Position numbers and translations under genes: made by a program. Source: Flavobacterium gelidilacus DSM 15343 (GTDB taxonomy: Bacteria > Bacteroidota > Bacteroidia > Flavobacteriales > Flavobacteriaceae). Taken from it: DNA of 64,000 nt. The notes beneath the pieces are model-generated. The model saw only the letters and a list, made by a program, of their open reading frames with translations. It was not told the DNA's origin and did not search any database. Below, in pieces: positions 555-16,430 of the stretch. The stretch covers positions 258,257 through 322,256 of the forward strand of contig NZ_KE383904.1 of NCBI RefSeq assembly GCF_000422685.1. Direction: 5' to 3'. How positions within the stretch are numbered: the stretch's first letter is position 1; each line of letters starts with the position of its first letter.

Positions 555-646
555 GATGAAAGAAACGAGAAGAAAGAGAAAAGACAAAATTTTTAAGATT
601 TCTCAAATTTCTCAAATCTGTGTTCCAAAAAAATAAAATTATCAAG

Positions 647-1738: not shown

Positions 1739-1822
1739 TTAGTTTTTAGTATTCAGTCGCAGTTTTCATAAAGTTTGAAACCTGAAACTAAAAAAACTAA
1801 AAAAACTTTTAAACAAAAAATT

Positions 1823-4800
1823 ATGCAAGAAGGTATAGCAGGTAAAATAGCCCATTTTTTCATCAATTCTAAATTGACCATTCTATTAATGGTAGGTTTG
1901 ATGATAATTGGAGTATATAGTTCGTTTTTAATTCCACGTGAAGAAGAACCACAAATTAACGTTCCAATGGCCGATGTAATGATTGGTTATCCAGGAGCAA
2001 GTCCGGCAGAAGTTGAAAGTCGTGTCATAAAACCACTTGAAAAAGTATTGTCAAACATCAAAGGAGTGGAGCATTTACATAGTATGGCTATGAATGGTCA
2101 AGCTATGATAATTGTGCAGTTTTATGTGGGAGAAGATTCAGAGCGTTCGTATGTGAAATTATACGATGAGTTGATGAAAAACGAAAATATTTTCCCGAAA
2201 GGTGTTTATAAACCAATGGTAAAAACACGTTCTATTGACGATGTTCCTATGTTGGGGTTAACGCTTTGGAGTGAAACATTAAACGATTTTGAAATTCGTC
2301 AAATTGCAGAAGAAGTTACCTCTGAAATTGAAAAAGTAAAAGATGTTGCCATTACTAAAGAAATTGGTGGAAGAACTCGTCAGCTTAAAGTGGTTTTAGA
2401 CAAAGATAAAATGGCAGAAAACGGAGTAGATGCTCTTGGAATTATGCAAATGATTCAAGCCAATAATGGAAGCTCACAATCAGGAAGTTTTGTGTCAAAA
2501 GACGAAGAGTTTTTAGTTACAACAGGAGAATTTTTATCAAATTCAGAAGATGTAGAAAACTTAGTAATTGGCGTAAATGCAAATATGCCCGTTTATTTAA
2601 AACAAGTAGCTAAAATTCAAGACGGACCAGCAACACCAAGTAGTTATGTGTCTTTTGGATATGGAAAAGCGAATGAAAAATATACCAAAAACAAATCAGA
2701 ATATCCAGCCGTTACGATTTCAGTAGGAAAAGTAAAAGGTGCAGATGCGATGAAAATTTCAGATAAAATTCTTGAAAAAGTCGAGGGTCTAAAGAAAAAT
2801 TTAATCACAAATGATGTGCATGTTGAGGTTTCTAGAAATTACGGAGAAACGGCTTCACACAAAGTAGGTGAATTATTAATGCACCTTGGAATTGCAATTA
2901 TTGCGGTAACGCTTTTAGTAATGTTAGCTATGGGTTGGCGTGGTGGATTAGTAGTATTCTTTTCTGTACCCTTAACCTTTGCATTAACACTATTTGCTTA
3001 TTACATGTTAGGGTATACTTTGAACAGAATTACACTTTTTGCACTAGTTTTCGTAGTAGGAATTGTGGTAGATGATAGTATTATTATAGCCGAGAATATG
3101 CACCGACATTTCAAAATGAAGCGATTGCCTTTCAAACAAGCAGCTATTTTTGCAATTAACGAAGTAGGAAATCCAACGATTTTAGCAACGTTTACCGTAA
3201 TTGCTGCGATTCTTCCAATGGCTTTCGTATCAGGAATGATGGGACCATATATGAGTCCAATGCCAATTGGTGCTTCTATTGCAATGTTACTTTCATTGTT
3301 TGTAGCTTTAACGGTGACACCTTATTTAGGATATCATTTATTACACGAAAAAGACGAACAAAAAGAGAAAGAAGAGCAAGGTTTAGAAACTTCTTGGATT
3401 TATAGAATGTACAATAAATTGGAACGACCATTTTTAGATAGTTCTACAAAACGTAGAGTAATGTTAGGAGTTACTGTTTTGTTGTTAATGGGTTCTGTAG
3501 CGATGTTTTTCACGAAATCAGTTTTAGTTAAAATGCTACCATTTGATAATAAAAACGAGTTTCAAGTAGTAGTAGATATGCCTGAAGGAACAACGTTAGA
3601 AAGAACAGCTGCTGTTACACAAGAAATTGCTCAATATTTGACTACAATTCCAGAAGTGGTAGATTATCAAAATTATATTGGAACTTCTGCACCAATCACG
3701 TTTAACGGACTAGTTCGTCATTACGATTTGCGTGGAGGAAGCAATATGGCTGATATTCAAGTAAACTTATTACACAAAGCAGATCGTGACTTACAAAGTC
3801 ATGATATTGCAAAAATTGTACGTCCAGAAGTGCAAAAAATTGCTAAAAAATACGGAGCTAATGTCAAAATTATTGAAGTTCCACCTGGACCACCAGTTTT
3901 ATCCACTTTAGTTGCCGAAATTTATGGACCAGATTACAAACAACAAATTGAAGTTGCCAATCAAGTAAAAGGAATTCTTGAAAAAACAGCGGATATTGTA
4001 GATGTGGATTGGATGACAGAAGACAATCAAGTTGAATACACCTTAGAAGTTGATAAAGAAAAAGCAATGCTTAACGGAATTGCTCCTCAACAAGTAGTTG
4101 GAAATCTGACGTATTTATTAAAAGAATATCCAGTTTCAAGCCTGTATGATGAAAATTCAAATAATAGTGTTGGAATCGTTCTTTCGTTAGATGATAAAGA
4201 CAAATCATCATTACAAGATATTCAAAACTTAAAAATTAAAGGAAGTAGAGGTAATGTTGTTCCAGTTTCTGATTTGGTAAAAGTGGTTGAAGGAACGTTA
4301 CAAAAAACTATTTATAGAAAAGACCAAAAACGAGTAGTTTATGTAACGGCTGATATGGCTGGAGATTTAGAAAGTCCTGTTTATGCTATTTTAGGCATGA
4401 ATGAAGAATTGCAAAAAATGAAACTACCAAAAGGCTACAAGGTAAATGAACTGTACATGGAACAACCTACAGATGAAAGTGATTTCACGGTTAAATGGGA
4501 TGGAGAATGGCAAATTACCTTAGAAGTATTCCGTGATTTAGGAATTGCTTTTGGAGTAGTAATCGTAATCATTTATATGTTGATTGTTGGATGGTTTCAA
4601 AACTTTAAAACGCCAATGGTCATGATGATGGCTATTCCACTTTCATTAGTCGGAATTGTATTTGGTCACTGGTTGTTAGGAGCTTATTTTACAGCAACAT
4701 CTTTTATTGGAATGATTGCTTTAGCAGGAGTAATGGTGCGGAATTCCGTCTTACTGATTGACTTTATAGAAATACGATTAAACGATGGTGTTCCTTTAAA

Positions 4801-5053
4801 ACAAGCTATTATTGAAGCTGGAGCTGTTAGAACAACGCCAATTTTACTAACAACAGGGGCAGTTGTAATTGGAGCAGTAATCATACTTTTTGATCCAATT
4901 TTCCAAGGATTAGCCATTTCGTTAGTATTTGGAGCAATTGTTTCAACTGTATTAACCTTAATTGTTGTGCCATTAATTTATTACATCGTGGAACGTAAAA
5001 AATGGGAGAAACAAGATGTGATTAAAGAAAATAATGATGAATCTAATATATAA
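1823..5053 (+). CDS. RND-family efflux transporter (AcrB/HAE1-like) inner-membrane pump
   Basis: Proton-driven inner-membrane pump of the tripartite system. I chose the ATG at 1823; a TTG at 1775 would add 16 Lys/Thr-rich residues. The protein has about 1076 residues with the usual duplicated layout: TM1 near the N-terminus (SKLTILLMVGLMIIGVYSSF), a large periplasmic porter domain, a six-helix block around residues 350-520, a second porter domain and a final helix block. The TM4 proton-relay pair is present in GIVVDDSIII. The short loop after TM1 (IPREEEPQINVPMADV) and the overall pattern match a multidrug-type branch better than a metal-exporting CusA branch, but the substrate is not assignable. 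Two small genes follow closely and probably share its mRNA. Confidence 0.95.
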   Translation: MQEGIAGKIAHFFINSKLTILLMVGLMIIGVYSSFLIPREEEPQINVPMADVMIGYPGASPAEVESRVIKPLEKVLSNIKGVEHLHSMAMNGQAMIIVQFYVGEDSERSYVKLYDELMKNENIFPKGVYKPMVKTRSIDDVPMLGLTLWSETLNDFEIRQIAEEVTSEIEKVKDVAITKEIGGRTRQLKVVLDKDKMAENGVDALGIMQMIQANNGSSQSGSFVSKDEEFLVTTGEFLSNSEDVENLVIGVNANMPVYLKQVAKIQDGPATPSSYVSFGYGKANEKYTKNKSEYPAVTISVGKVKGADAMKISDKILEKVEGLKKNLITNDVHVEVSRNYGETASHKVGELLMHLGIAIIAVTLLVMLAMGWRGGLVVFFSVPLTFALTLFAYYMLGYTLNRITLFALVFVVGIVVDDSIIIAENMHRHFKMKRLPFKQAAIFAINEVGNPTILATFTVIAAILPMAFVSGMMGPYMSPMPIGASIAMLLSLFVALTVTPYLGYHLLHEKDEQKEKEEQGLETSWIYRMYNKLERPFLDSSTKRRVMLGVTVLLLMGSVAMFFTKSVLVKMLPFDNKNEFQVVVDMPEGTTLERTAAVTQEIAQYLTTIPEVVDYQNYIGTSAPITFNGLVRHYDLRGGSNMADIQVNLLHKADRDLQSHDIAKIVRPEVQKIAKKYGANVKIIEVPPGPPVLSTLVAEIYGPDYKQQIEVANQVKGILEKTADIVDVDWMTEDNQVEYTLEVDKEKAMLNGIAPQQVVGNLTYLLKEYPVSSLYDENSNNSVGIVLSLDDKDKSSLQDIQNLKIKGSRGNVVPVSDLVKVVEGTLQKTIYRKDQKRVVYVTADMAGDLESPVYAILGMNEELQKMKLPKGYKVNELYMEQPTDESDFTVKWDGEWQITLEVFRDLGIAFGVVIVIIYMLIVGWFQNFKTPMVMMMAIPLSLVGIVFGHWLLGAYFTATSFIGMIALAGVMVRNSVLLIDFIEIRLNDGVPLKQAIIEAGAVRTTPILLTTGAVVIGAVIILFDPIFQGLAISLVFGAIVSTVLTLIVVPLIYYIVERKKWEKQDVIKENNDESNI

Positions 5054-5058
5054 ACATT

Positions 5059-5364
5059 ATGAAACTACTAATAATTACAGCAATAAAAGAGTTTGAAAAA
5101 GAAATCAAACAGAAATTAAAAAAAGCAAAAGTAGAAACGTTTTCTTATAAAAATGTCATTGGATATAGAGATAATACAGAAGATGTAATAGAATCAAATT
5201 GGTTTTCAAGCGAAATGAATAAATCAGAATCTATATTATTTTATGCCTTTGTAAAAAAAGAAAATGTTGACATGTTATTTGATTCTATTAACGAGTTTAA
5301 CGCAAAACAAGAAACGCTTTCACATATTCATGTAGCCGTTTTGGCAATTGAAAAATCAAATTAA
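5059..5364 (+). CDS. Small P-II-like/ferredoxin-fold protein of the RND operon
   Basis: A 101-residue protein starting 5 bases after the RND pump stop, so certainly co-transcribed. It begins MKLLIITAIKEFEKEI and ends HIHVAVLAIEKSN, a pattern of alternating beta strands and amphipathic helices that resembles the P-II/DUF3240 alpha-beta fold of small cytosolic proteins often placed behind RND pumps. No signal peptide, membrane segment or cysteine is present. A regulatory or substrate-sensing role for the pump is inferred from position only. The fold assignment is by eye and moderately sure. Confidence 0.75.
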   Translation: MKLLIITAIKEFEKEIKQKLKKAKVETFSYKNVIGYRDNTEDVIESNWFSSEMNKSESILFYAFVKKENVDMLFDSINEFNAKQETLSHIHVAVLAIEKSN

Positions 5365-6004: not shown

Positions 6005-6430
6005 TTAAGAGAAGATTCTCAATTCACTTCCAGTTAATGCAGTGTTATATTGTGTTAAATTTTTAGAACCTGGGCCACTCAAATGTTGCCCTGCATTACT
6101 AAAATTAGCTCCATGATTTGGACAATGAAAATCATTACTACTAGCTACATAATTTACACTTGTTCCATCGTGAGTGCAAGCAGCAGAAACGGCTAAAAAT
6201 GTTCCAGTATTTGTACGAGCAATTACAATTCCATTAGTAACCATAAAACCACCATTTGTAGCTAATGAACCAGTAGAAACATCTACAGTAAAATCTACAC
6301 CTGAAGGAGCAGGAGCAGGGCTGCCTGAGCCGTCATTGCTACAACTTGTTGTTAATCCACCTATACATGCAGGAACTAAAATTAGTGCTGCTCCAAATCC
6401 TGCTTTTGAAAAAAATTCTTTTCTTGTCAT
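6005..6430 (-). CDS. Rieske [2Fe-2S] lipoprotein
   Basis: A 141-residue exported iron-sulfur protein, probably a periplasm-facing electron carrier. Both Rieske cluster motifs are intact: C85-T-H87 and C103-P-N-H106. The ATG at 6430 is chosen because it starts a Tat-like signal (TRKEFFSK with an RK in place of RR), which fits export of a folded cofactor protein. A Cys at residue 22 or 30 could be lipidated. A Gly/Pro/Ala linker separates the anchor from the domain. It follows the TonB receptor gene but also has its own copy of the shared GTAGGG-N16-TGTT site, so it probably belongs to the local sigma regulon. It lacks the transmembrane helix of bc1-type Rieske subunits. Confidence 0.9.
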   Translation of the reverse strand: MTRKEFFSKAGFGAALILVPACIGGLTTSCSNDGSGSPAPAPSGVDFTVDVSTGSLATNGGFMVTNGIVIARTNTGTFLAVSAACTHDGTSVNYVASSNDFHCPNHGANFSNAGQHLSGPGSKNLTQYNTALTGSELRIFS

Positions 6431-6457
6431 AATGTTTAAGCTTTTATATTTTAATAA

Positions 6458-6481
6458 CAATTTCAGCCCCAAAAGCCCTAC
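6458..6481 (-). promoter_or_regulatory. Candidate ECF-sigma promoter, site D
   Basis: On the minus strand GTAGGG (6481-6476) is followed after exactly 16 bases by TGTT (6459-6456), with the A-rich stretch AAAAAAA just upstream. The start of the Rieske gene is about 46 bases below the GTAGGG box. The same arrangement occurs at three other places in this cluster. Confidence 0.6.
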
Positions 6482-6493
6482 TTTTTTTAAAAC

Positions 6494-9031
6494 CTAAAAA
6501 CTATATCTAACAAAAATATTTGGAGTTCTTTTTAGAGCATATGTATTAACTTGCTCTACAGAATTAGAATTAGAATTTATTCTGTAAAATTGATTTAGGT
6601 TAGTTTTTGAATTCAATAAATTTTGGATTGAGAAACCAATTTTCATTTTAGATTTTTGAGTTAAATTAATATCATAAGAACCCGATAAATTAATTTGAAA
6701 GAAATTTTTTAAATTAGTTGAATTTGGATTTGAATATGCTATTTCTGTAGAACTATTACTTAAATATATTGGTGTTAAACTTATTGGGAGAGTTGTAGGT
6801 TTCCCAGTAAACCATTGTGCTCCAAGTGATAAGTCTAATTTATTGAAATTAGTAATTATTGCCGATTTAATAGTATGTTTTATTTCGAAATTATTGGGAA
6901 ATGAAGAAGGAGTTAAATTCTTAAAAGTATAATCATTTTGAGTGAAGGCATAACTTACCCAAAACATTAAATTTTTATATTTTTTTTGAGTTAAAAATTC
7001 GGTGCCATAAACAGTATAACTTCCATTTGTTCTAATAAATTCAAATTGATTTTGAAAAGCTTCTGTCATAGAAGTAATTCCATCTACTTTTTTGTAAAAA
7101 TTATCAACAGTTAATAACCAATTTTTTTTAGAAAATAAAAAACCAAGAGATACTTGGTTACTTTTGATTATTGGAATAGCATTATTGTTTGATAAAACCC
7201 ATCTTCTTTTTTCAATTCCTAAAAAATCTTTTTGTAAATCTACAATTTGCGATGTGACTTGGTGTTTTTTTTCTGCCAAAAATTCTATTGAAAAAAAGGG
7301 TGCAATTTTATAATTAAGTTGTATTCTCGGTTCAAAAATAAAAGATTGAAATTGTTCAATATAATTTTGTCTTATTCCAAACGTACTTAAAAACTTATCA
7401 TTCTTTGAAAGATATTTTAGTTCACCAATTATGGCATGATTACGTAATACATGTTTATTGTTTCTAGAGAAAGTAGGACTATTTATTTTGTCATTATTTC
7501 TTATTCCAATTTCATTGTATTGATAACCATTAGAAAAGGAAAAAACATTAGATAAAATATGATTGTTTTCTAATTTTATACCTATGTCTAAAATCGTATT
7601 TTCTTGATTAAAAATTTGATTATTTTGTATAGATTGATTTTCAGATTGTATATTGAAATAAGAAGTGTAAATAGAAATTTTTGAACTATTTTTCGGATTC
7701 CAATTGGTCTTAAACATCACATTTGCTCCATAAGTTTCTTGATCAAGGACACTTTGTTTAGTTATTATAGTGTTGTTTTCGTTTTTAGATTGATTAATAT
7801 CCAAATCATTTGAAAAGTGCAAAACATCAATAAAAAAATCAGTTTCTTTTTTTATTTTTTGATGATATTGTAAAGATAAATCATAAAAATAAAAATACAC
7901 ATCAGAATTGTAACTAGTATTTAGATTATTAGTTACTATAGTGTTTTGAAACACTTTATTGTAATAATTTTTATAGGTTGACGAACTAAGTAAATCAGTA
8001 AATGAACGTCTTCCGCTAATTTCTAAATTTGATTTTTTTGAAGTTTTTAATTTGGTGTAGAAATCAACATTAATCATATTTATGCCAAAAGCACCAGTTG
8101 ATTTTTCTATTGAATCTGTTTGTGTTGAAATTAGAACGGAACTCGAAACACCATTTCCATAAAAAGAAGAAGTTCCGTTTTTTGAAAGCGTTATTTTATG
8201 AGTTAGATTTGGATTTAAAACAGAAATTAATCCAAAAAAATGCCCTGTTTGATATAGTTGAATGCCATTCCAAAGAAATAAATTTTGATCATGAGTACCA
8301 CCTCTAATACTCATATTAGAAATTGTTCCATCCGTTATGTTTATTCCAGGAATTTGTTGAATTGTTTGAAAAACATCAGGTTCAGATAATCCGGGTAATA
8401 ATCCTTGTTTTTTTGGATTTATTTCAAAAGTTCCGTCTCTTTTTTTTATAATTCCTTTCGTAAGATATTCTTCAAAGATGAAAATATTTAATTCATTGAT
8501 CTTATTTTTTATATAAATTTTTAGGCAATCATTTCCATCAAAATCTGAAGTTTGAATTGTTTTTATATCATAATTCAAGTGAGAAATTTCAATTTCATTA
8601 GTTGATTTTAATTGCAATTCAAAAAAACCTAAAGGATTAGAAATAGCGTAATTATTAGAGTTTTTTATATGAATGGAAGCATTTTCAATTGGAAGTTTTG
8701 CTTCATCATCATAAAGATAGCCACAAACAGTTTTGTCTAAGTTTTGATTGTTAACAACAGAAATATATTTACCAGAAACAAAAATAAATTTAAGTTGCGT
8801 TTTTTGAGTTATATAATCAAGCTTGTCAAATAAAGATAATGAATTTTTTGGAGGAATAATTTTAAATGAAGTAATTTCATCTTCAATAAAATTAAAATTG
8901 ACTTTGTGTTGTATGCTTATTTTTTCTAAAATTTCTTTCAACAAGAGACCTTCATTTTTGTCTTGTGCCACCAATTTTGGAACTAAAACAAAAAAAGCAA
9001 TTATAATTAGTATTATATTTTTTTTTATCAC
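6494..9031 (-). CDS. TonB-dependent receptor with STN signalling domain (FecA-like)
   Basis: An 845-residue outer-membrane receptor that takes up a ligand with TonB energy and reports its presence to FecR. Order: signal peptide (ending about LVAQ, residue 22), a STN domain near 28-95 of the type that contacts FecR, a carboxypeptidase-regulatory-like beta domain near 101-190, a plug domain (DVFQTIQQIPGINI... SIRGGTHDQNLFLWNG) and a 22-strand-type barrel ending in a terminal Phe (RYSF). There is no SusD partner, so a siderophore, haem, metal or cofactor ligand is more likely than a glycan, but the ligand is unknown. Its start overlaps the fecR stop by 4 bases (ATGA), so the two are translationally coupled. 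Confidence 0.93.
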   Translation of the reverse strand: MIKKNIILIIIAFFVLVPKLVAQDKNEGLLLKEILEKISIQHKVNFNFIEDEITSFKIIPPKNSLSLFDKLDYITQKTQLKFIFVSGKYISVVNNQNLDKTVCGYLYDDEAKLPIENASIHIKNSNNYAISNPLGFFELQLKSTNEIEISHLNYDIKTIQTSDFDGNDCLKIYIKNKINELNIFIFEEYLTKGIIKKRDGTFEINPKKQGLLPGLSEPDVFQTIQQIPGINITDGTISNMSIRGGTHDQNLFLWNGIQLYQTGHFFGLISVLNPNLTHKITLSKNGTSSFYGNGVSSSVLISTQTDSIEKSTGAFGINMINVDFYTKLKTSKKSNLEISGRRSFTDLLSSSTYKNYYNKVFQNTIVTNNLNTSYNSDVYFYFYDLSLQYHQKIKKETDFFIDVLHFSNDLDINQSKNENNTIITKQSVLDQETYGANVMFKTNWNPKNSSKISIYTSYFNIQSENQSIQNNQIFNQENTILDIGIKLENNHILSNVFSFSNGYQYNEIGIRNNDKINSPTFSRNNKHVLRNHAIIGELKYLSKNDKFLSTFGIRQNYIEQFQSFIFEPRIQLNYKIAPFFSIEFLAEKKHQVTSQIVDLQKDFLGIEKRRWVLSNNNAIPIIKSNQVSLGFLFSKKNWLLTVDNFYKKVDGITSMTEAFQNQFEFIRTNGSYTVYGTEFLTQKKYKNLMFWVSYAFTQNDYTFKNLTPSSFPNNFEIKHTIKSAIITNFNKLDLSLGAQWFTGKPTTLPISLTPIYLSNSSTEIAYSNPNSTNLKNFFQINLSGSYDINLTQKSKMKIGFSIQNLLNSKTNLNQFYRINSNSNSVEQVNTYALKRTPNIFVRYSF

Positions 9032-9939
9032 CTACTTGTAACTAATTCAAAAGAATTTTCATTTATTTTTTTTATTTTTAAGTGATAGTTTGAGGCAATA
9101 ATTTGTAAAGTTATATCTATATTGTCAGTTGGAATTGTTCCTGTAAATAATTGTTCTGATTTAAAATCATAGGTTTTCAAAGATATATTGTATTGAATTT
9201 CAATTTCTTGAATAAGATTTTTAAATTTTTCTTTTTCAAATTTCATTTCGTTCAAAGTCCAAAGCGGCTTATTTTCTGTTACAGATTGATTAATAATCAT
9301 TTTATTATTCTCAAATGAAACAGTTTGTCCTTTTAAAAGGATAACTTCATTTTTGGTTGATTTTACTCTTACTTTCCCTTCATAACAAGTTACATCAAAC
9401 CTTTTATTTCTTGATTTAACATTAAATTGAGTGCCTAAAACTGTTACTTTTCCTGAGTTTGTATTTACCGTAAATTTTTTGCCTTTTGCAACTTTAAAAT
9501 AAGCTTCTCCAGACAAATTTAATTGCCTTTTATTGTACCAATTCCATTTGCTATATTCAATTTTAGAACCAGAATTCATAACAACTTCTGAATTATCTGG
9601 TAAAGAAAATACGTTTTGTTTTCCATTTATTGCAATTTCAGTAATTTCAGAAAAGGCCTCTAATCCTAAAAAAAGGCCAAAACCAATAACTAAAACGGCT
9701 GCTATTTTTAGATACCAATTTTTATATAGTGGTTTAGTTTTATTTAGTTTTATTTTGGAAGATATTACTTTGTCAAGCATTTCTTCTTCATTATTTTTAT
9801 CTGTTTCTATTTCTAATTCAGATGAATATTTTTTAATTTTTTCATATATAGCAAAATCCTCCTGACTTTGGAATTCATTTAATTCCGTTTTAGTCATTTC
9901 GCCATTGAGCCATTTAGATAGTTTGTAATTTTTTTCCAT
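9028..9939 (-). CDS. FecR-family anti-sigma factor
   Basis: A 303-residue single-pass membrane regulator. The N-terminal about 75 residues are cytosolic and would hold the sigma factor; a helix near residues 75-97 (WYLKIAAVLVIGFGLFLGLE) crosses the membrane; the periplasmic FecR domain follows (FSLPDNSEVVMNSGSKIEYS, GEAYFKVAKGKKFTVNTNSG, VTVLGTQFNVKS) and a DUF4974-type C-terminal domain completes the protein. It lies directly downstream of the sigma gene but with its own GTAGGG-type site in the 57-base gap, and it is coupled to the TonB receptor by a 4-base overlap. Expected job: release or activate the sigma factor when the receptor binds its ligand. Confidence 0.94.
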   Translation of the reverse strand: MEKNYKLSKWLNGEMTKTELNEFQSQEDFAIYEKIKKYSSELEIETDKNNEEEMLDKVISSKIKLNKTKPLYKNWYLKIAAVLVIGFGLFLGLEAFSEITEIAINGKQNVFSLPDNSEVVMNSGSKIEYSKWNWYNKRQLNLSGEAYFKVAKGKKFTVNTNSGKVTVLGTQFNVKSRNKRFDVTCYEGKVRVKSTKNEVILLKGQTVSFENNKMIINQSVTENKPLWTLNEMKFEKEKFKNLIQEIEIQYNISLKTYDFKSEQLFTGTIPTDNIDITLQIIASNYHLKIKKINENSFELVTSR

Positions 9940-9950
9940 GATTATATTAT

Positions 9951-9976
9951 AACATAGTAACTATACTTTACCCTAC
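9951..9976 (-). promoter_or_regulatory. Candidate ECF-sigma promoter, site A
   Basis: On the minus strand GTAGGG (9976-9971) and TGTT (9954-9951) are separated by 16 bases, preceded by AAAAAA. It lies between the sigma gene and fecR, 34 bases from the fecR start codon to the box. It would drive fecR and the TonB receptor. Confidence 0.6.
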
Positions 9977-9996
9977 TTTTTTAGATAAAGTGTATG

Positions 9997-10509
9997 CTAT
10001 TTAAAATAGTCGAATTCTTTTCTCAATTCAGTTAAAGCAATATGTATTCTTTTTTCCACTGCTTTTACACTAATATTCAATATTTCAGCTATTTCGCTAT
10101 ATTTTTTTCCGTCAATTCGGTGCATTAAAAAAGCAACACGCTGGGTTTCATTTAATTTTTCAATAGCCTTAAGTAACTTCTCTTTAAATTGTGATTCTTC
10201 TAATAAAAATTCTGGATTTTCATGGATTCGATCATTTTGAGTATTGCTTTTTTGATATTTTAATTTTACTTTTTCATGTGTTATTACATTTAAAGAAGAA
10301 TTAGTTGCGATTGTATAAACATACGATTTGGCTTTTTCTAGAGGAACATCGGCACAATTTTGCCAAAGTTTAATAAATGCATCTTGTGTTATGTCTTCGG
10401 CTTGACTTAGATTGCCAAATTTGTAATAAAGATAATTTCGTAAGGCATTTGCATTTTTTCTAAAAAAAATAGAAAATACACTTTCATTACAAACTTCAGA
10501 AGATGACAT
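9997..10509 (-). CDS. FecI-type ECF RNA polymerase sigma-70 factor
   Basis: A 170-residue extracytoplasmic-function sigma factor. Region 2 is seen in NLSQAEDITQDAFIKLWQN, which binds the -10 element, and region 4 in KKYSEIAEILNISVKAVEKR, a helix-turn-helix for the -35 element. Length and order match the two-domain ECF class used in Bacteroidota polysaccharide and iron regulons. It heads the sigma-FecR-receptor set and is divergent from the lipoprotein operon at 10608. No GTAGGG box faces this gene, so it may be expressed from a housekeeping promoter while its targets carry the box. That regulatory assignment is inference. Confidence 0.94.
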   Translation of the reverse strand: MSSSEVCNESVFSIFFRKNANALRNYLYYKFGNLSQAEDITQDAFIKLWQNCADVPLEKAKSYVYTIATNSSLNVITHEKVKLKYQKSNTQNDRIHENPEFLLEESQFKEKLLKAIEKLNETQRVAFLMHRIDGKKYSEIAEILNISVKAVEKRIHIALTELRKEFDYFK

Positions 10510-10551
10510 GTTTAAATAAATTGATTAGGTAAATTTATACTTTTTTTTTAA

Positions 10552-10578
10552 AGTAGGGTTTTTTATTTGTAAATTGTT
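10552..10578 (+). promoter_or_regulatory. Candidate ECF-sigma promoter, site B
   Basis: GTAGGG at 10552-10557 and TGTT at 10575-10578 are separated by 17 bases, with TTAAA just upstream. The lipoprotein start codon at 10608 is 50 bases below the box. The site lies in the divergent gap beside the sigma gene. Confidence 0.6.
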
Positions 10579-10607
10579 TTTAATTAAGTTGTAGCACACA
10601 AAAGATT

Positions 10608-11639
10608 ATGAAAAAGATAAATATATTTTTAATTATTGTTCTAGGGATTCTTAGTACAAGTTGTCAAAATGAAGAGAGTGAAATTGAGAACCCTAATCAA
10701 AACGTAAATAATATTGTTGTAGGTTCACCTTTGTTTGATTTAATTTCTAGAACCACACAAAACCCTACAGAAATAGATAATGTTATAGACAACTGTAGTG
10801 GTTTTAGTGTTCAGCTTCCCTTAAGTTTGACTGTTAATGGTGTGGCTGTTAATGTTGCTACCAATTTGGATTACCAAAATGTTCAAGATATTAAAAATCA
10901 GTATACTTCAGATAATGATATAGTCTATTTAGATTATCCTGTTACAGTAATATTTAAAAATTTCAGTACAGAAAACGTCTCAAATTATTCACAGTTTCAT
11001 GATTTAGTTGAAAACTGTGAATATGATAATGGTTTTAATGAAATAGATTGTATCTCATTTAATTTTCCTTTAGTTATAAATATTTATAATGCAGATAATC
11101 AAATTGCAGATTTAATAACAATTCAAAATAATGAACAATTTTACAATTATATTAATGGATTAAATTCAAATATAATTGCAGCATTTGCGTTTCCTATAAC
11201 TATGACAGGTTCAAGTGGTGAAAATGTAATAATATATTCTAATACTGAATTAGAATCGTTTATAAACAACGCTATAGATGATTGTGTCACAAATTCTGGA
11301 GGAACTGGGACATTAGATTTAGAAACGGTTTTAACATCTGGGAGTTGGTATATTTCGTACTATTATAAGAATATCGACGGAACCTATTACTACAATGGAT
11401 ACAATTTTACATTTTTAAACAATGGTGATTCACAAGTAGTAAAAAACGCAGGAGTTATAAATGGAAGTTGGCTGATAGAGTTAGATAATGGAATTCAAAA
11501 ACTAGATTTAAATTTTGAAGGAGACTCCTTGTCAGAAATAAAAGAAGATTGGAAAGTAACAGAGTTTTCCGAAACAAATATAAGATTGAAAAAGACTGAA
11601 AACAGTGAAATTAGATATTTGTATTTTGCAAAAAATTAA
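10608..11639 (+). CDS. Lipoprotein with two Cys-bounded repeats and a lipocalin-like tail
   Basis: A 343-residue exported lipoprotein of no recognised family (lipobox STSC, Cys19). Residues 63-137 and 148-226 are two diverged copies of one module: each starts with Cys, then an F-x-x-x-[LF]-P-L strand, a middle strand, a second proline strand ([YF]-P-[VI]-T) and ends N-x-[VI]-x-x-C-like with a closing Cys, suggesting a disulfide per module. Residues about 240-343 form a separate beta domain (SGSWYISYYY ... NGYNFTF ... YLYFAKN) shared with the next gene. It is the first gene behind site B. A ligand-binding or cofactor-scavenging surface role is possible but not shown. Confidence 0.85.
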   Translation: MKKINIFLIIVLGILSTSCQNEESEIENPNQNVNNIVVGSPLFDLISRTTQNPTEIDNVIDNCSGFSVQLPLSLTVNGVAVNVATNLDYQNVQDIKNQYTSDNDIVYLDYPVTVIFKNFSTENVSNYSQFHDLVENCEYDNGFNEIDCISFNFPLVINIYNADNQIADLITIQNNEQFYNYINGLNSNIIAAFAFPITMTGSSGENVIIYSNTELESFINNAIDDCVTNSGGTGTLDLETVLTSGSWYISYYYKNIDGTYYYNGYNFTFLNNGDSQVVKNAGVINGSWLIELDNGIQKLDLNFEGDSLSEIKEDWKVTEFSETNIRLKKTENSEIRYLYFAKN

Positions 11640-11662
11640 TTATAAACTTAAATATTTTTACT

Positions 11663-12133
11663 ATGAAAAAAATTAAATTAATTCCTTTATTAGCAATGAT
11701 TTTTATGCTAAATGTTGCTTCAATGTGTAGCAATGATGATGATTCAAATTCATCGAGTAACTCTGATCCAGTTCCAGTAATTAATACTATGTCTCAAGGC
11801 ACTTGGAGGATTACTTTTTATGAAGATTCTGGTGAAAATCATACGAACTATTTTACTGGGTATAATTTTACTTTTGGCACATCAAATGTCCTTACAGCTT
11901 CAAATGGAGTAGATATATATACAGGAATATGGTCAGTGACAAATAGTGATACTAATGATGATAGTCCAAGTAATGATTTGGATTTTAATATTCTATTTAC
12001 TTCACCAACAAATTTTTCAGATGAATTATCTGATGATTGGGATATTTTATCACGAACTGATACAAAAGTTGAATTAGTAGATGTAAGTGGAGGAAATGGA
12101 GGAACCGATTACCTCACATTTGAAAAAAATTAA
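11663..12133 (+). CDS. Small lipocalin-like lipoprotein
   Basis: A 156-residue protein with an N-terminal export signal and a Cys at residue 22 (ASMC, an untypical lipobox because of the Met), followed by an Asp/Ser/Asn-rich linker. The remaining about 115 residues align with the C-terminal domain of the preceding gene: GTWRITFYE, TGYNFTFG, a GIWSV strand, LDFNILF, DDWDILSRTDTKVEL and the ending YLTFEKN. This is a compact eight-strand-like barrel reminiscent of Flavobacterial lipocalin-like proteins. It is 23 bases from its neighbour and ended by a terminator, so the two form one operon. Function unknown. Confidence 0.82.
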   Translation: MKKIKLIPLLAMIFMLNVASMCSNDDDSNSSSNSDPVPVINTMSQGTWRITFYEDSGENHTNYFTGYNFTFGTSNVLTASNGVDIYTGIWSVTNSDTNDDSPSNDLDFNILFTSPTNFSDELSDDWDILSRTDTKVELVDVSGGNGGTDYLTFEKN

Positions 12134-12140
12134 AAATTTT

Positions 12141-12177
12141 AAAAAAGCCATCAATTAAGTTTGATGGTTTTTTTTTG
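12141..12177 (+). terminator. Intrinsic terminator of the lipoprotein operon
   Basis: CCATCAA at 12148-12154 pairs with TTGATGG at 12161-12167 and is followed by nine T. It separates the two-lipoprotein operon from the redox operon behind site C. Confidence 0.85.
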
Positions 12178-12194
12178 TTAAAAAAATATTTTAG

Positions 12195-12220
12195 GTAGGG
12201 TTTCAATTTGTTTAATTGTT
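12195..12220 (+). promoter_or_regulatory. Candidate ECF-sigma promoter, site C
   Basis: GTAGGG at 12195-12200 and TGTT at 12217-12220 are 16 bases apart. The site sits right after a terminator and 61 bases before the ATG at 12262, so it is well placed to drive the five-gene redox operon that follows. Confidence 0.6.
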
Positions 12221-12261
12221 TTAACATTATAATGAGTCTAAAAAATCTAAATAACACATTT

Positions 12262-12657
12262 ATGAATAGCAAATTAAAAAAGATATTGATTGTTTTAGGA
12301 ATAGTTTTATTGGTTGGTTTTTATGGATATAATTACATAATGCATGGTGGAGCTAGAGATATTCAATTAGAGGAAAGTGCTTTTGTAGTTTCTTCAAATG
12401 ATATTAAAAATGAATTTACTAAGAACATAGATGAAGCAACAAAAAAATATCTTAATAAAACTATTGAAATTTCTGGACTAATTTCAAACATTAAGGATAG
12501 TATAGTTACAATTGATGAAACTATTTTTTGCAAAATGATTTCTTTTAAAAATGTTAAAGAAAATAAAGACAAGATAACCATAAAAGGAAGACTTGTTGGC
12601 TTTGATGACCTTTTGGGAGAAATTAAACTAGACGAATGTAATATAAAAACCAACTAA
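12262..12657 (+). CDS. Membrane-anchored OB-fold (tRNA_anti-like) protein
   Basis: About 131 residues when started at the ATG at 12262, which gives a Lys-rich N-terminus followed at once by a hydrophobic anchor (ILIVLGIVLLVGFYGYNYIM). An upstream ATG at 12208 would add 18 residues and lies before or at the likely transcription start. The soluble part (YLNKTIEISGLISNIKDSIVTIDETIFCKM ... KITIKGRLVGFDDLLGEIKLDECNI) has the strand order of the tRNA_anti-like OB-fold family found widely in Bacteroidota. Function is unknown; it is the first gene of the operon with DUF5777, haem c, YceI and DUF2271 genes. Confidence 0.8.
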   Translation: MNSKLKKILIVLGIVLLVGFYGYNYIMHGGARDIQLEESAFVVSSNDIKNEFTKNIDEATKKYLNKTIEISGLISNIKDSIVTIDETIFCKMISFKNVKENKDKITIKGRLVGFDDLLGEIKLDECNIKTN

Positions 12658-12665
12658 CTAAAATT

Positions 12666-13544
12666 ATGAAATTAACAAAAGTCACTCATTTGCTTTTTTT
12701 GTTTTTAGCATTTAATCTTGCTAATGCTCAAGACGATTTATTGGATCAATTAGATTCAATTCAACCTAAAGAAAAAGGAATTGCTACTGCAGCTTTCAAA
12801 GGATTGCAAGTATGTAATATGCAATCAACCAAACTACCAGTTAAAGGGGAGTTTTACTTTTTGGTATCTCACCGTTTTGGGGATTTATCAAATGGATTAG
12901 ATAACTTTTTTGGGCTGGATAATGCCTTAACAAAAATTGGAGGAATTTGGGGTGTTACTAATTGGTTGTCACTAGGTGCATCAAGACATACTTATAATAA
13001 AACTTATGAGTTAGCTGCTAAATATAAATTTATAAGCCAAAGAGAAGAAGGTTTTCCTTTTACTATTGTTGGGTATAATACTATGGATATAAATAGTGAT
13101 TTAAAAAAAGACAACAACCCTCAATTGGTCTTTCAAAACAGATTGCAATATTCGTCTCAATTAATAATTTCTAGAAAATTTTCAGAATCATTTTCAATGC
13201 AAGTATTGCCAATATTTGTTCATAAAAATCTATATGATAATACTATTGATCAAAAAGAAACTTTTTTAATAGGAGCTGGAGGAAGGTATAAACTTAGTAA
13301 ACGATTGAGTCTAAATGCAGAATATGCCTATAGAACAAACGTTGATAGTGGTTTGTCTAATTCACCATTCAATAATCCACTAACTGTTGGTTTAGATATT
13401 GAAACAGGAGGACATGTTTTTCAATTGGTTTTTGCTAACAGTCAACCAATGAATGATGTCGCAATGTTAACAAATGCAAGAGGTAATTGGGACTTTAAAA
13501 GAGGGCCACTTTATTTCGGATTTAATATGTACAGAGTTTTTTAA
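12666..13544 (+). CDS. DUF5777-type outer-membrane beta-barrel protein
   Basis: A 292-residue exported protein (signal peptide ending LANAQ) made of alternating amphipathic strands with many aromatic girdle residues and a final Phe, typical of an outer-membrane barrel. Marks of the DUF5777 family include the segment EFYFLVSHRFGDLSNGLDNFFGLDNA near residues 60-85, LSLGASRHTYNKTYELAAKYKF and the ending FKRGPLYFGFNMYRVF. The haem c gene starts 12 bases downstream. In this operon it may act as the barrel of a porin-cytochrome-like conduit or simply as an anchor; only the barrel nature is supported. Confidence 0.87.
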   Translation: MKLTKVTHLLFLFLAFNLANAQDDLLDQLDSIQPKEKGIATAAFKGLQVCNMQSTKLPVKGEFYFLVSHRFGDLSNGLDNFFGLDNALTKIGGIWGVTNWLSLGASRHTYNKTYELAAKYKFISQREEGFPFTIVGYNTMDINSDLKKDNNPQLVFQNRLQYSSQLIISRKFSESFSMQVLPIFVHKNLYDNTIDQKETFLIGAGGRYKLSKRLSLNAEYAYRTNVDSGLSNSPFNNPLTVGLDIETGGHVFQLVFANSQPMNDVAMLTNARGNWDFKRGPLYFGFNMYRVF

Positions 13545-13556
13545 AAATAAATAAAG

Positions 13557-13928
13557 ATGAAAAAAACAATTCAATTAATACTATTTATAGCAGTAGTAAC
13601 AATTTCAATTAGTGCACTTAATTCATGTGATTCTAGTACTTATGAAGAGATTTCAAAAATTACAAATCCTACTTATGAGGCTAATATGAAATCAATATTC
13701 ACTTCAAATTGTACAAGTTGTCATAGTGAAAATGGCACGCAACAATCACCTTATTTAACTACTTATGCTGAAGTTAAAGATGGAATCGAAAACGGAGTAG
13801 TTCTATGTATTATAGATAATCCAGAAGATTGTTTTTATAGTGATATTATGCCACCAGCTGGAAGAATGCCACAAACAACAATTGATTTAATAAAACTTTG
13901 GCAAACAAACGGATATGTTGAACAATAA
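13557..13928 (+). CDS. Mono-haem c-type cytochrome-like lipoprotein
   Basis: A 123-residue lipoprotein (LNSC, Cys24) with one CxxCH haem attachment site at residues 52-56 (CTSCH). The layout, with about 10 residues of helix before the site (YEANMKSIFTSN) and a Met after it in IMPPAGRMP, fits a small class I-like cytochrome c domain in which Met98 or Met104 would be the sixth ligand. It is the electron-carrying member of the operon, between the barrel gene and YceI. Two extra Cys (84 and 92) flank the DNPED loop and may form a disulfide. It is short but complete; no other haem site is present. Confidence 0.88.
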   Translation: MKKTIQLILFIAVVTISISALNSCDSSTYEEISKITNPTYEANMKSIFTSNCTSCHSENGTQQSPYLTTYAEVKDGIENGVVLCIIDNPEDCFYSDIMPPAGRMPQTTIDLIKLWQTNGYVEQ

Positions 13929-13938
13929 AAAACAAATT

Positions 13939-14484
13939 ATGAAAAATTTTAAAATAATTTTATTCGGATTACTTTTCATTAATATGGGTTTTGCCCAAAA
14001 AATGTTAACCAGAACAGGAGAAGTAAAATTTGAAGCTTCAATGCCCGGAATCGAAGAAGTAGCTGGAACAAGTACAACTTCATCTTGTGTTTTTGATAAA
14101 TCTACGGGTGATATTGCAGCACTAACACTAGTAAAATCCTTCAAGTTCAAAGCCCCATTAATGGAAGAGCATTTTAATGAAAATTATATGGAATCTTCAA
14201 CTTATCCAAAATCAACTTTTAAAGGAAAAGTTATAGGTTTTGATTCGTCAAAATTAACAGATAAAGCACAAACGTATGATTTAGAGGGGGATCTAACAAT
14301 TCATGGAATTACAAAAAAAATAAAGACAAAAATAACATTAACTCCTTCAGGAGAAAAACTGATTGTAACTTCTAATTTTTCTGTAAAACCAGTTGATTAT
14401 GGAATTAAAATTCCAAGTTTAGTGAAAAGTAAAATTGCTGAAAATGCAAGTATAGCACTAAAGTTTAATTTAGAAAAACAATAA
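13939..14484 (+). CDS. YceI-family periplasmic lipid/quinone-binding protein
   Basis: A 181-residue exported protein. The ATG at 13939 gives a standard signal peptide (LLFINMGFAQ); an upstream ATG at 13915 overlaps the previous gene and is not needed. The body shows the YceI lipocalin-like pattern: TRTGEVKFEASMP, a F-D-K-S-T-G strand, FKFKAPLMEEHFNENYMES, STFKGKVIGF, and the conserved LTIHGITKKIKTKITL strand pair. YceI proteins bind isoprenoid lipids such as polyprenols and quinones (family knowledge). Placed between a haem lipoprotein and a presumptive flavoprotein, a quinone-related role is plausible but inferred. Confidence 0.9.
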   Translation: MKNFKIILFGLLFINMGFAQKMLTRTGEVKFEASMPGIEEVAGTSTTSSCVFDKSTGDIAALTLVKSFKFKAPLMEEHFNENYMESSTYPKSTFKGKVIGFDSSKLTDKAQTYDLEGDLTIHGITKKIKTKITLTPSGEKLIVTSNFSVKPVDYGIKIPSLVKSKIAENASIALKFNLEKQ

Positions 14485-14515
14485 AATAAACAATTAACAT
14501 ACAAACTATTTTATC

Positions 14516-15376
14516 ATGAAAAAAACAGGAATTATAGCATCAATTTTACTGTGTTTTGTAATAAATTCATTTGCTCAAACACAAGGAACATTAACATTTT
14601 CATATAATCAGCCACAGCCAACAAATCCTGCGCCAAATGCTGGTATAAAAAATGTTTATGCTGTTTGGATTGAAAATGCAGCAGGAACTTTTATTAAAAC
14701 AAAAGCAAGATATGTTTCAGCTTCTACAGATGATCATTTGCCTTCTTGGGGTGCAAAAGCAGGTTGTTCAAGTGCTACTGCGGTAGCAGCCACTGGAAAT
14801 AATTGCAATGTTACTGACGGATTAACAGGTGCAACAAGAACCAACACTACAGCGCCAACAGCTTTTGGCTCAAAAACTATTACATGGGATGGGAAAAATG
14901 TTGTAGGAACAACTAATGGAACAACAGTAGCTGACGGTAATTATGTGGTTTGGATTGAAAGTTCTTGGAGAGATTCTGGTTCTAATAATCATGGTGCAAT
15001 TGCAAGTTTTACATTTACAAAAGGACCAACTACTGTGCATCTCACTCCAACTTCACCGAGTACATTTTTTGATAGTGTAGTGATTGATTGGGTGCCTTCA
15101 GGTCTTTCGGTTGAAGAAGTTAAAAATACCGAGCCTGTCGTAGTCATTTATCCAGTTCCATCAACTGGTGTTTTTAATATCGATTTTAAAAATGAGATTG
15201 AAAGTATAGAAGTATATAATTTATTAGGTCAATCTGTTTATTCAGAAAAATTAGACACTGCAAATGTATCAACAACAAAGAAAATAGATTTGTCTAATTT
15301 AAATAATGGAGCATATATTATTAGTCTGACTAATGTAAACGGTACATCAAATTATGAGGTAATATTGAATAAGTAA
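14516..15376 (+). CDS. DUF2271-type protein with flavinylation motif and T9SS type A tail
   Basis: A 286-residue secreted protein. Residues 1-20 are a signal peptide (NSFA|Q). Residues about 24-195 match the DUF2271 pattern (NVYAVWIENAAGTFIKT near 46-62, DHLPSWGA, KTITWDGKNV, DGNYVVWIESSWRDSG). Inside it lies D101-G-L-T-G-A-T107, which fits the D-x-x-[ST]-G-A-[ST] signature at which ApbE attaches FMN; Thr107 would carry the flavin. Residues about 205-286 are a T9SS type A sorting domain (VVIYPVPSTGVFNI ... VYNLLGQSVYSEKL ... NNGAYIISL). It ends the operon and is convergent with apbE. Expected product: a cell-surface or released covalent flavoprotein. The flavinylation is inferred from the motif. 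Confidence 0.86.
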   Translation: MKKTGIIASILLCFVINSFAQTQGTLTFSYNQPQPTNPAPNAGIKNVYAVWIENAAGTFIKTKARYVSASTDDHLPSWGAKAGCSSATAVAATGNNCNVTDGLTGATRTNTTAPTAFGSKTITWDGKNVVGTTNGTTVADGNYVVWIESSWRDSGSNNHGAIASFTFTKGPTTVHLTPTSPSTFFDSVVIDWVPSGLSVEEVKNTEPVVVIYPVPSTGVFNIDFKNEIESIEVYNLLGQSVYSEKLDTANVSTTKKIDLSNLNNGAYIISLTNVNGTSNYEVILNK

Positions 15377-15403
15377 AGTTAGTTTATATTTTTTTTTAAT
15401 TTT

Positions 15404-15433
15404 AAAAACACCTTTTTTTAAAGGTGTTTTTTT
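15404..15433. terminator. Bidirectional terminator between redox operon and apbE
   Basis: AAACACCTTT pairs with AAAGGTGTTT, with A-rich and T-rich flanks on both sides, so it can stop transcription from either direction. It touches the apbE stop codon at 15432-15434. Confidence 0.85.
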
Positions 15434-16430
15434 ATTCAACATCCATAACAATAGATTTTAAATGAGGCGTTTCATAAACTTGAAAATTCCCTTTTTCATC
15501 AGAATATATTAAATAGGCTTGAATTTCTGGGCGAGATTCTAAAAACAGTTTTGCTTTTTCAATTCCCATAACTAAAATGCCAGTTGCAGTTGCATCAGAA
15601 GTAATACATTTATTTGAAAAGACAGTAGCACTTAATAAATTATTTTTAGTTGGATAACCAGTCTTTGGATCAATATGATGAGCATATTTTATTCCGTTTT
15701 CTATAGTATATCTTCTGTAATCTCCAGAAGTAGCAATGCCTATATTTTCTAATTTTATAATTGCTTTTAAAGGATTTGTTGCTTCTTTATTGTCTATAGG
15801 TTTTTCTATTCCAACTGTCCAGTTTGAATTATCGGGTTTTTTGCCTTTTGCATAAACTTCACCACCAATTTCAACTAAATATGAATCAATTTTTTTGGAG
15901 TTTAAAAATTCAGAAACTACATCTACTGAATAACCTTGTGCAAAAGCATTAAAATCTAATTTCACTCTTGAATCAATTTTTACGACTCTATTTCCTTTTA
16001 ACTTAATTAATTCAAATCCCACAAATTCTAATACACTATCAATCTTGTTTTTTTCGATTATTTGTTTTTTTTCAGGACCAAAACCCCAAATATTTACTAA
16101 AGGGTAAACTGTTGGGTCAAAGGCACCATTTGTATTTTTCCATACCTCTTTTGCTTTTTTAAAACATGCTTTAAAGTATTTATCAACTTTTACATTTTTA
16201 TCATTATTATTTATTCTTGAAATAATTGAGGTTGGTAAATATGTGGAAACAGATTTATCAAAATCAGCTAGGATTTTTTCGATTTCTGATTGAAAATTTC
16301 TGTTTTGAGAATCAAAATAACTAATGTGATAAGTTGTTCCTTGAGCTTCACCTTCAATTTTTATAGATTCTTGTTGAGAAAATGCAATTGAAGAAAAAAA
16401 GAAGAATAGTAAAAAATAATTGGTTTTCAT
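15432..16430 (-). CDS. apbE: FAD:protein FMN transferase
   Basis: Exported flavin transferase of 332 residues that cleaves FAD and links FMN through a phosphoester to Ser or Thr of target proteins. Visible marks are the signal peptide (SIAFSQ), the early GTTYHISYF strand, STYLPTSIISRIN, GAFDPTVYPLVNIWGFG, the RVKLDFNAFAQGYSVD segment, HHIDPKTGYP and the Mg-binding SDATATGILVMG region near the C-terminus. In Flavobacteria ApbE is usually met next to the Na+-NQR genes; here it faces a DUF2271 protein that carries the target motif. It has no GTAGGG box upstream, so it may be expressed constitutively and serve several targets. Confidence 0.95.
   Translation of the reverse strand: MKTNYFLLFFFFSSIAFSQQESIKIEGEAQGTTYHISYFDSQNRNFQSEIEKILADFDKSVSTYLPTSIISRINNNDKNVKVDKYFKACFKKAKEVWKNTNGAFDPTVYPLVNIWGFGPEKKQIIEKNKIDSVLEFVGFELIKLKGNRVVKIDSRVKLDFNAFAQGYSVDVVSEFLNSKKIDSYLVEIGGEVYAKGKKPDNSNWTVGIEKPIDNKEATNPLKAIIKLENIGIATSGDYRRYTIENGIKYAHHIDPKTGYPTKNNLLSATVFSNKCITSDATATGILVMGIEKAKLFLESRPEIQAYLIYSDEKGNFQVYETPHLKSIVMDVE

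Follow-up and report, generated by a model that had tools for sequence, protein, structure and literature searches.

The 64,000-nucleotide stretch of DNA from Flavobacterium gelidilacus DSM 15343 analysed here (the window) contains, between positions 6005 and 16430, a cluster in which a sigma factor and its presumed signalling partners lie among genes for a Rieske lipoprotein, a mono-haem cytochrome and other envelope proteins (Table 1). A Rieske gene, the gene of a TonB-dependent receptor and those of a FecR-type anti-sigma factor and of an extracytoplasmic function (ECF) sigma factor are followed on the opposite strand by two lipoprotein genes, LP1 and LP2, and by the unit OB-DUF5777-cytochrome-YceI-DUF2271-like, whose genes are separated by 8, 12, 10 and 31 bp. 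The last product of this unit bears the tail of proteins exported by the type IX secretion system (T9SS), and an apbE gene on the other strand faces it across a gap of 55 bp.

Unless stated otherwise, the families of the cluster proteins in the window were scored by the curated Pfam cut-offs. The genes named in a first-pass annotation, made from the letters alone, are all present at their places and all their families pass the cut-off except DUF2271, for which the protein encoded at 14516 scores 16.9 bits (PF10029, cut-off 27.3); strict membership of that family was given up and the protein is therefore called DUF2271-like. The open reading frames agree with the positions of that annotation apart from three starts, which were revised to ATG 6436 for the Rieske protein (not 6472), ATG 12262 for the OB protein (not 12208) and 13939 for YceI; with the starts 6472 or 12208 the reading frame would overlap a promoter site. 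The Rieske ligands C-x-H and C-x-x-H are present as read from the sequence. The set formerly labelled FecI/FecR/FecA-like does consist of adjoining sigma, FecR and TonB receptor genes, of which "FecA-like" now means only a plug-bearing TonB receptor: an STN search of this receptor gives no match up to an E value of 0.1, and its N-terminus is STN-like by eye.

Table 1. Genes and promoter sites of the cluster (positions in the window; bit scores with cut-offs where given; loci are those of the comparison described in the text)
Feature	Position	Strand	Evidence
Rieske 2Fe-2S lipoprotein	6005..6436	-	PF00355 42.1 bits (cut-off 20.3); own promoter site
TonB-dependent receptor, presumed signalling	6494..9031	-	Plug 32.6 bits; homologue in 24/101 loci
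FecR-type anti-sigma factor	9028..9939	-	FecR 68 bits; FecR_C 24.6 bits (cut-off 24.4)
ECF sigma factor	9997..10509	-	Sigma70_r2 46.5 bits; Sigma70_r4_2 64.1 bits
Lipoprotein LP1	10608..11639	+	No Pfam family over cut-off; LP1/LP2-type homologue in 27/101 loci
Lipoprotein LP2, resembles end of LP1	11663..12133	+	No Pfam match
Membrane-anchored OB-fold (tRNA_anti-like) protein	12262..12657	+	PF12869 39.2 bits; 85/87 close loci
DUF5777 outer-membrane barrel, 12 strands predicted	12666..13544	+	PF19089 287 bits; model pLDDT 83.7
Mono-haem c-type cytochrome lipoprotein	13557..13928	+	Cytochrom_C 22.4 bits (cut-off 21.3)
YceI-family periplasmic protein	13939..14484	+	PF04264 57.9 bits; 86/87 close loci
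DUF2271-like secreted protein with TGAT motif and T9SS tail, proposed surface flavin carrier	14516..15376	+	Por_Secre_tail 50.8 bits
ApbE, FAD:protein FMN transferase, convergent	15432..16430	-	PF02424 279 bits
Promoter GTAGGG-N16-TGTT of Rieske gene	6453..6481	-	Motif search
Promoter GTAGGG-N16-TGTT of fecR and receptor	9948..9976	-	Motif search
Promoter GTAGGG-N16-TGTT of LP1-LP2	10553..10581	+	Motif search
Promoter GTAGGG-N16-TGTT of OB-DUF5777-cytochrome-YceI-DUF2271-like operon	12195..12223	+	Motif search

The conservation of the cluster was followed in a family draw of 120 genomes (one per genus), in a genus draw of 101 genomes, and in a named-genome set consisting of the best 80 of at least 583 DUF5777 relatives confirmed in one scan, which partly repeats genomes of the other sets. 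The 101 loci that were compared are the window and 100 fetched places, 60 from the family draw and 40 from the genus draw; they are a subset, fetched mostly best scores first, in which some loci end at contig ends, and the removal of 14 loci with a distant DUF5777 leaves 87 close loci. DUF5777 relatives occur in 57 of the 120 family-draw genomes and in 75 of the 101 genus-draw genomes. Within 3 kb of DUF5777, the close loci hold the OB gene in 85 cases, the cytochrome in 86, YceI in 86 and all three in 84, and the sigma-FecR-receptor set lies within 8 kb in 23 of the 87; in the 80 named loci, YceI, the cytochrome and OB are found within 8 kb in 79, 78 and 56 cases, respectively. The order is either OB-DUF5777-cytochrome-YceI or cytochrome-YceI-OB-DUF5777, so that the core genes stay together despite rearrangement. 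The constant core is thus composed of OB, DUF5777, the mono-haem cytochrome and YceI.

In the case of Kaistella gelatinilytica (locus L181), the genes sigma-FecR-receptor-Rieske-OB-DUF5777-cytochrome-YceI-DUF2271-like-ApbE, the DUF2271-like one with TGAT, form a row of ten in one direction, with gaps of 0-137 bp and, in one case, reading frames that overlap by 28 bp. The loci L102 and L111 present the row from sigma to YceI in a single direction, and in all three the Rieske homologue lies within the run. In Chryseobacterium gambrini (L157), a Crp-type regulator gene is followed by DUF5777-cytochrome-YceI-ankyrin-DOMON, spaced by 3, 9, -4 and 3 bp. A Flavobacterium johnsoniae strain (L149) possesses the sigma, FecR and receptor genes together with the core. 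The gene order, whose lack of conservation the first-pass annotation had named as refuting its proposal, is therefore kept for the core, for the regulators in part of the close loci and for ten genes in the Kaistella row. What could not be retained is the idea of the full gene set as a single obligatory unit: the Rieske, ApbE and DUF2271-like genes, which accompany DUF5777 in only 7, 9 and 11 of the 101 loci, were rejected as members of the constant core, and the DUF2271-like domain occurs in 13 of the 101 genus-draw genomes.

The second line of evidence is a two-box motif, GTAGGG-N16-TGTT, which occurs four times in the window, once ahead of each unit of the cluster and nowhere else. The whole genome (3.44 Mb) has five sites, four of them at the cluster, and none for the reversed control, which makes the shared promoter a stronger link between the units than was first claimed. 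In relatives that possess the regulators, the sites at the locus out of those genome-wide are 3/3 in genome G172, 3/4 in both G182 and G184, 3/9 in G129 and 2/9 in G166; the reversed control gives 3, 3, 1, 7 and 8 sites in these five genomes, so that the position of the motif, and not its number, is informative there. With a spacer of 16 or 17 and repeated upstream sequences counted once, here and in the upstream counts that follow, 181 loci contain 112 sites (105 with 16) and 2 of the reversed control. These sites lie ahead of fecR (28), LP genes (26), OB (20), cytochrome genes (10), Rieske genes (6), a DUF2271-like gene (1) and other genes (16), or inside genes (5). In loci with regulators, GTAGGG stands upstream of 28/46 fecR, 20/55 LP, 11/46 OB and 6/6 Rieske genes (window included) and of 10/461 other genes; none of the 46 homologues of the sigma gene has it. 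In loci without regulators, the figures are 7/103 for OB, 0/3 for Rieske and 17/1645 for other genes. The earlier suggestion of sigma control gains support from a promoter nearly confined to the locus and recurring in relatives, and we infer that the cluster's own sigma factor would be the one that reads GTAGGG-N16-TGTT.

The promoter evidence is borne by the spaced two-box motif, unlike the simpler motifs. AAGTAGGG alone occurs 3 times in the window for 0.86 expected, and 5 of 100 shuffles reach 3; GTAGGGT alone occurs 5 times for 1.97 expected (5/100 shuffles); AARGTAGGG has 17 sites genome-wide, 3 of them at the cluster, and 44 for the reversed control. None of these is convincing. A stricter form, GTAGGG-N16/17-TGTTNTA, gives two sites in the own genome, both at the cluster, and none in G208, which has the regulators; it was not retained. 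At fecR, only a few bases separate the -10 box from the ATG (9939-9976), so that the transcript may have almost no leader, or the true start of fecR may lie further on.

Beside the core, 46 of the 101 loci encode a T9SS-tailed protein whose domain differs by genome, DOMON in 21, cupredoxin in 14 and DUF2271-like in 11, and no locus holds two classes. The DUF2271-like count was made with a domain-limited profile (11 matches), a wider one having drifted onto T9SS tails (83 matches). All 14 cupredoxin carriers match PF00127 and bear the tail, and their type-1 copper ligands His56, Cys94, His97 and Met100 are invariant. The DOMON carriers match DOMON in 17 of 21 cases and have the tail in 21 of 21; a Met is kept in all 21, as is a His in or adjoining one column (17 exact), a Met/His pair also found at the haem of cellobiose dehydrogenase. 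The DUF2271-like carriers match DUF2271 at E values up to 0.01 in 8 of 11 and the tail in 11 of 11. Tailed carriers are encoded by 46 of the 722 genes that lie no further than 2.5 kb from DUF5777 and by none of the 1014 beyond, and untailed cupredoxins number 3 within this distance and 2 beyond. In whole genomes picked for having a carrier, 21 of 23 DOMON places and 15 of 18 cupredoxin places are at the core, the latter figure including G040 and G018, which have no cupredoxin at the core, and counting one two-domain gene twice; in the genus draw, 12 of 15 DUF2271-like places are at DUF5777. A DUF5777 tree of 156 rows, obtained by a quick search with distant, short and repeated rows left out, requires at least 12 changes among the three carrier classes over 86 rows, a number not compared with shuffled labels. 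Since relatives hold a cupredoxin or a DOMON protein at the carrier place, the surface carrier is exchangeable, and this carrier swap beside a conserved core is a new observation of the present analysis.

The carrier of the window follows the pattern of an ApbE substrate, namely a TGAT sequence of the form [S/T]GA[S/T] and an ApbE gene next to it. DUF2271 and DUF3570 proteins are flavinylated by ApbE according to PMC8238504. TGAT aligns with the canonical flavinylation motif in a profile alignment that is itself weak (probability 3%), and the motif is aligned in 8 of the 11 DUF2271-like homologues. The sorting domain is clear (PF18962 at a cut-off of 27; TIGR04183 37.3 bits, cut-off 23), and in a fold search of the model only the tail was informative, matching the C-terminal domain of NucA in a T9SS complex (8glk_D). 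ApbE lies near DUF5777 in 9 of the 101 loci and in 5 of the 80 named loci, and each of these nine and five loci has a DUF2271-like carrier. A PF10029 search of the F. gelidilacus genome gave no match. The same genome has three ApbE genes, the cluster's one included. On other contigs (L214/L215), the second is located beside a DUF3570 protein (124.7 bits) and a thioredoxin-looking protein, and the third behind an nqr operon whose NqrC has SGAT, these names being given by reading; each ApbE of the genome seems to have its own substrate.

The predicted DUF5777 model appears to resemble small porins and secretion channels: the nearest solved folds are NanC, EstA, FapF, OmpG, COG4313 and KdgM, at query TM-scores of about 0.5 or less. 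The cytochrome homologues have one CxxCH and a later Met-Pro in 94 of the 95 loci having the gene; the homologue of L047 has C-x4-C-H in place of CxxCH. In the family relative L090 (5508-12556), a distant DUF5777 lies next to a lipoprotein that has six CxxCH motifs and an MtrC/F domain (31.6 bits, cut-off 30), in a cluster which also holds a 4Fe-4S protein, NrfD (92 bits) and small cytochromes. These neighbours indicate that members of the barrel family do occur in respiratory clusters, and the L090 cluster is a candidate outer-membrane conduit of its own.

The model we propose, which we hold to be probable, is that of a sigma-controlled envelope electron-transfer module with an exchangeable surface carrier. 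The binding of a ligand to the TonB receptor would be signalled through FecR and would free the sigma factor, which would in turn switch on the four promoters of this single locus, as their conserved sites suggest. In the periplasm, YceI would bind a quinone or another lipid-soluble redox compound and the mono-haem cytochrome lipoprotein would act as a one-electron carrier. The DUF5777 barrel, together with the OB-fold protein, would serve either to anchor the complex at the outer membrane or to let a small mediator through. Before export, ApbE would link FMN (flavin mononucleotide) to the DUF2271-like domain, at the Thr of TGAT. This redox protein, which the type IX system would export and attach to the cell surface, would perform the last step; in relatives, a cupredoxin or a haem-binding DOMON protein would take its place. 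The electrons would most likely flow outward and reduce an external compound, perhaps the ligand of the receptor itself, for example a complex of ferric or cupric ions. That the core handles electrons is argued mainly from the one property which covalent flavin, blue copper and Met/His haem have in common, electron transfer. The exchange among flavin, copper and haem carriers strengthens the envelope redox chain proposed in the first-pass annotation; its passage of electrons through the barrel finds no support in the 12 predicted strands and the mono-haem partner.

Several observations weigh against this model. The barrel as an Mtr-like haem wire was rejected, since the 12 predicted strands make it too narrow and its partner has a single haem. 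A Pfam scan of the cluster proteins of the window found no quinol-oxidising membrane protein, and the Rieske gene, as said, is rare at these loci. As to the flavin carrier, PF10029 exceeds its cut-off in only one of the 11 carriers (L115, 28.7 bits, without the motif), and FlgD_ig, which is over its own cut-off in L094, L107, L118 and both L141 copies, competes with DUF2271. A comparison with a profile of true DUF2271, built from 10 of the 15 places over the cut-off, gives a score of 21.7 (P 0.014, probability 3%) where 12 controls give 8.4-17.7, and is suggestive only. L099, L109 and L115, all beside an ApbE, lack the motif at the aligned place, although in L099 it occurs at another one. The structural model of the DUF2271-like protein has a low confidence (pLDDT 70.6). 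The DUF2271-like query matches a single one of the 120 family-draw genomes, F. gelidilacus itself, which means that this carrier is narrowly distributed. Furthermore, no carrier is recognised in 52 of the 101 loci, and in a further 3 the only one is a cupredoxin without the tail; some carrier-less loci encode proteins that bear a T9SS tail but no known redox domain (L057, L064) and others include Lipoprotein_15 proteins (L113). Such loci weaken the general claim about carriers. We would give even chances to the wider statement of a class of extracellular electron-transfer system in which Flavobacteriales keep one periplasmic and outer-membrane core (DUF5777, mono-haem cytochrome, YceI and usually OB), swap a T9SS-exported terminal surface carrier with covalent flavin, blue copper or haem b, and place it in some lineages under a nearly private ECF sigma regulon.

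The cluster could alternatively serve the capture of haem, a metal or a cofactor, the receptor importing the ligand, the barrel passing small molecules, YceI binding a lipid and the surface proteins acting as haemophore-like binders. Sets of FecI, FecR and a receptor classically respond to iron or haem, the DUF5777 barrel resembles small-solute porins among others, and 13 of the 101 loci have a FecCD-type permease gene no more than seven genes away from DUF5777 (one was checked, FecCD 263 bits). On the other hand, covalent flavin, type-1 copper and Met/His haem have electron transfer in common and no nutrient, the cytochrome retains CxxCH and Met with the constancy noted above, and a distant DUF5777 is found in the NrfD/multihaem cluster, so that we regard capture as improbable. 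An electron flow directed inward, in which an extracellular enzyme or compound would reduce the surface carrier and this carrier would supply the cytochrome and the respiratory chain, seems to us unlikely to the same degree. It would agree with the positive potentials usual for type-1 copper and Met/His DOMON haem centres, which are fit for accepting electrons, and the sequence holds nothing that fixes a direction; the flavin version, however, is expected at a lower potential, and the Pfam scan revealed no extracellular dehydrogenase family among the cluster proteins of the window.

It is very unlikely, finally, that a sigma-controlled DUF5777 system and a DUF2271-like/ApbE flavoprotein are independent neighbours adjoining by chance. 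ApbE is indeed on the other strand and without the shared promoter, and 90 of the 101 DUF5777 loci lack the DUF2271-like gene; but this gene is on the same strand as YceI and 31 bp after it, it follows the core together with ApbE in one direction in L181, in the genus draw it is mostly found at DUF5777, and other carriers occupy the place beside the same core. A cluster assembled by chance as a whole is ruled out by its conservation across loci.

The electron-transfer module that we favour has points in common with several known systems. In conduits of the MtrCAB type, an outer-membrane barrel of 20 or more strands works with a multihaem cytochrome and a surface redox protein. In the window, an outer-membrane barrel is likewise encoded next to a c-type cytochrome and a proposed surface redox protein, and the DUF5777 of L090 stands beside an MtrC/F-like protein, but the window has 12 predicted strands, a mono-haem cytochrome and a T9SS-tailed surface protein. 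With FecI/FecR/FecA signalling, the window shares the ECF sigma factor, a FecR with FecR_C and a TonB receptor, whereas its promoter-linked units encode a redox core, not a ferric-citrate transporter, behind GTAGGG-N16-TGTT. The PepSY-like flavinylation systems described in PMC8238504, where flavinylation of a DUF2271 protein was demonstrated in E. coli, also have an apbE gene adjoining that of a secreted protein with the [S/T]GA[S/T] motif. By contrast, a scan of the cluster proteins of the window showed no PepSY-like protein or DUF4198, the substrate has a T9SS tail, and the core is made of DUF5777, cytochrome, YceI and OB; DUF5777, YceI and Rieske do not occur in the main text of that paper. 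In the Shewanella YceJ-YceI path, YceI is proposed as a periplasmic electron mediator for extracellular reduction, a proposal which, in PMC8981235, is based on co-expression and cited work; unlike that path, the scanned cluster proteins of the window include no YceJ-like cytochrome b. In the iron RNA-seq of Riemerella, PMC5429918 gives a YceI-like gene, possibly that of the core, at log2 1.16 under iron limitation. No description of the present system was found in the open-access literature searched, among the matches listed; a paper that mentions both T9SS and cupredoxin deals with a copper island in another organism. To our knowledge, the electron exchange of Bacteroidota with their surroundings is little understood. 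Could it proceed, in part, through such a module? If so, a widespread core whose surface carrier alternates among three cofactors would make a defined and testable system, DUF5777 would gain a function, type IX secretion would be tied to redox chemistry, and the promoter motif would be a direct route to what the receptor senses.

Some further features of these loci deserve mention. The LP1 and LP2 profiles gave 36 matches each, in 27 loci; the homologues mostly follow the sigma set in relatives, and LP1 appears by eye to hold repeats of a short module that contains Cys and Pro. Lipoprotein_15 (secreted repeat) lipoproteins adjoin the core at L113:8218-9129, L033:10820-12052 and L043:8234-9454; those of L033 and L043 match the cupredoxin profile too, while Pfam at E 0.001 does not list cupredoxin for them. 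An exported ankyrin-repeat protein is encoded near the core in 19 of the 101 loci (for example L097:12164-12685(-), Ank by Pfam), and it is a gene of this type that sits between YceI and DOMON in L157. Ahead of the cluster, positions 21-5364 of the window hold an ordinary efflux-type set, read as an outer-membrane factor, a membrane-fusion protein and a resistance-nodulation-division (RND) pump, followed by a small P-II-like protein.

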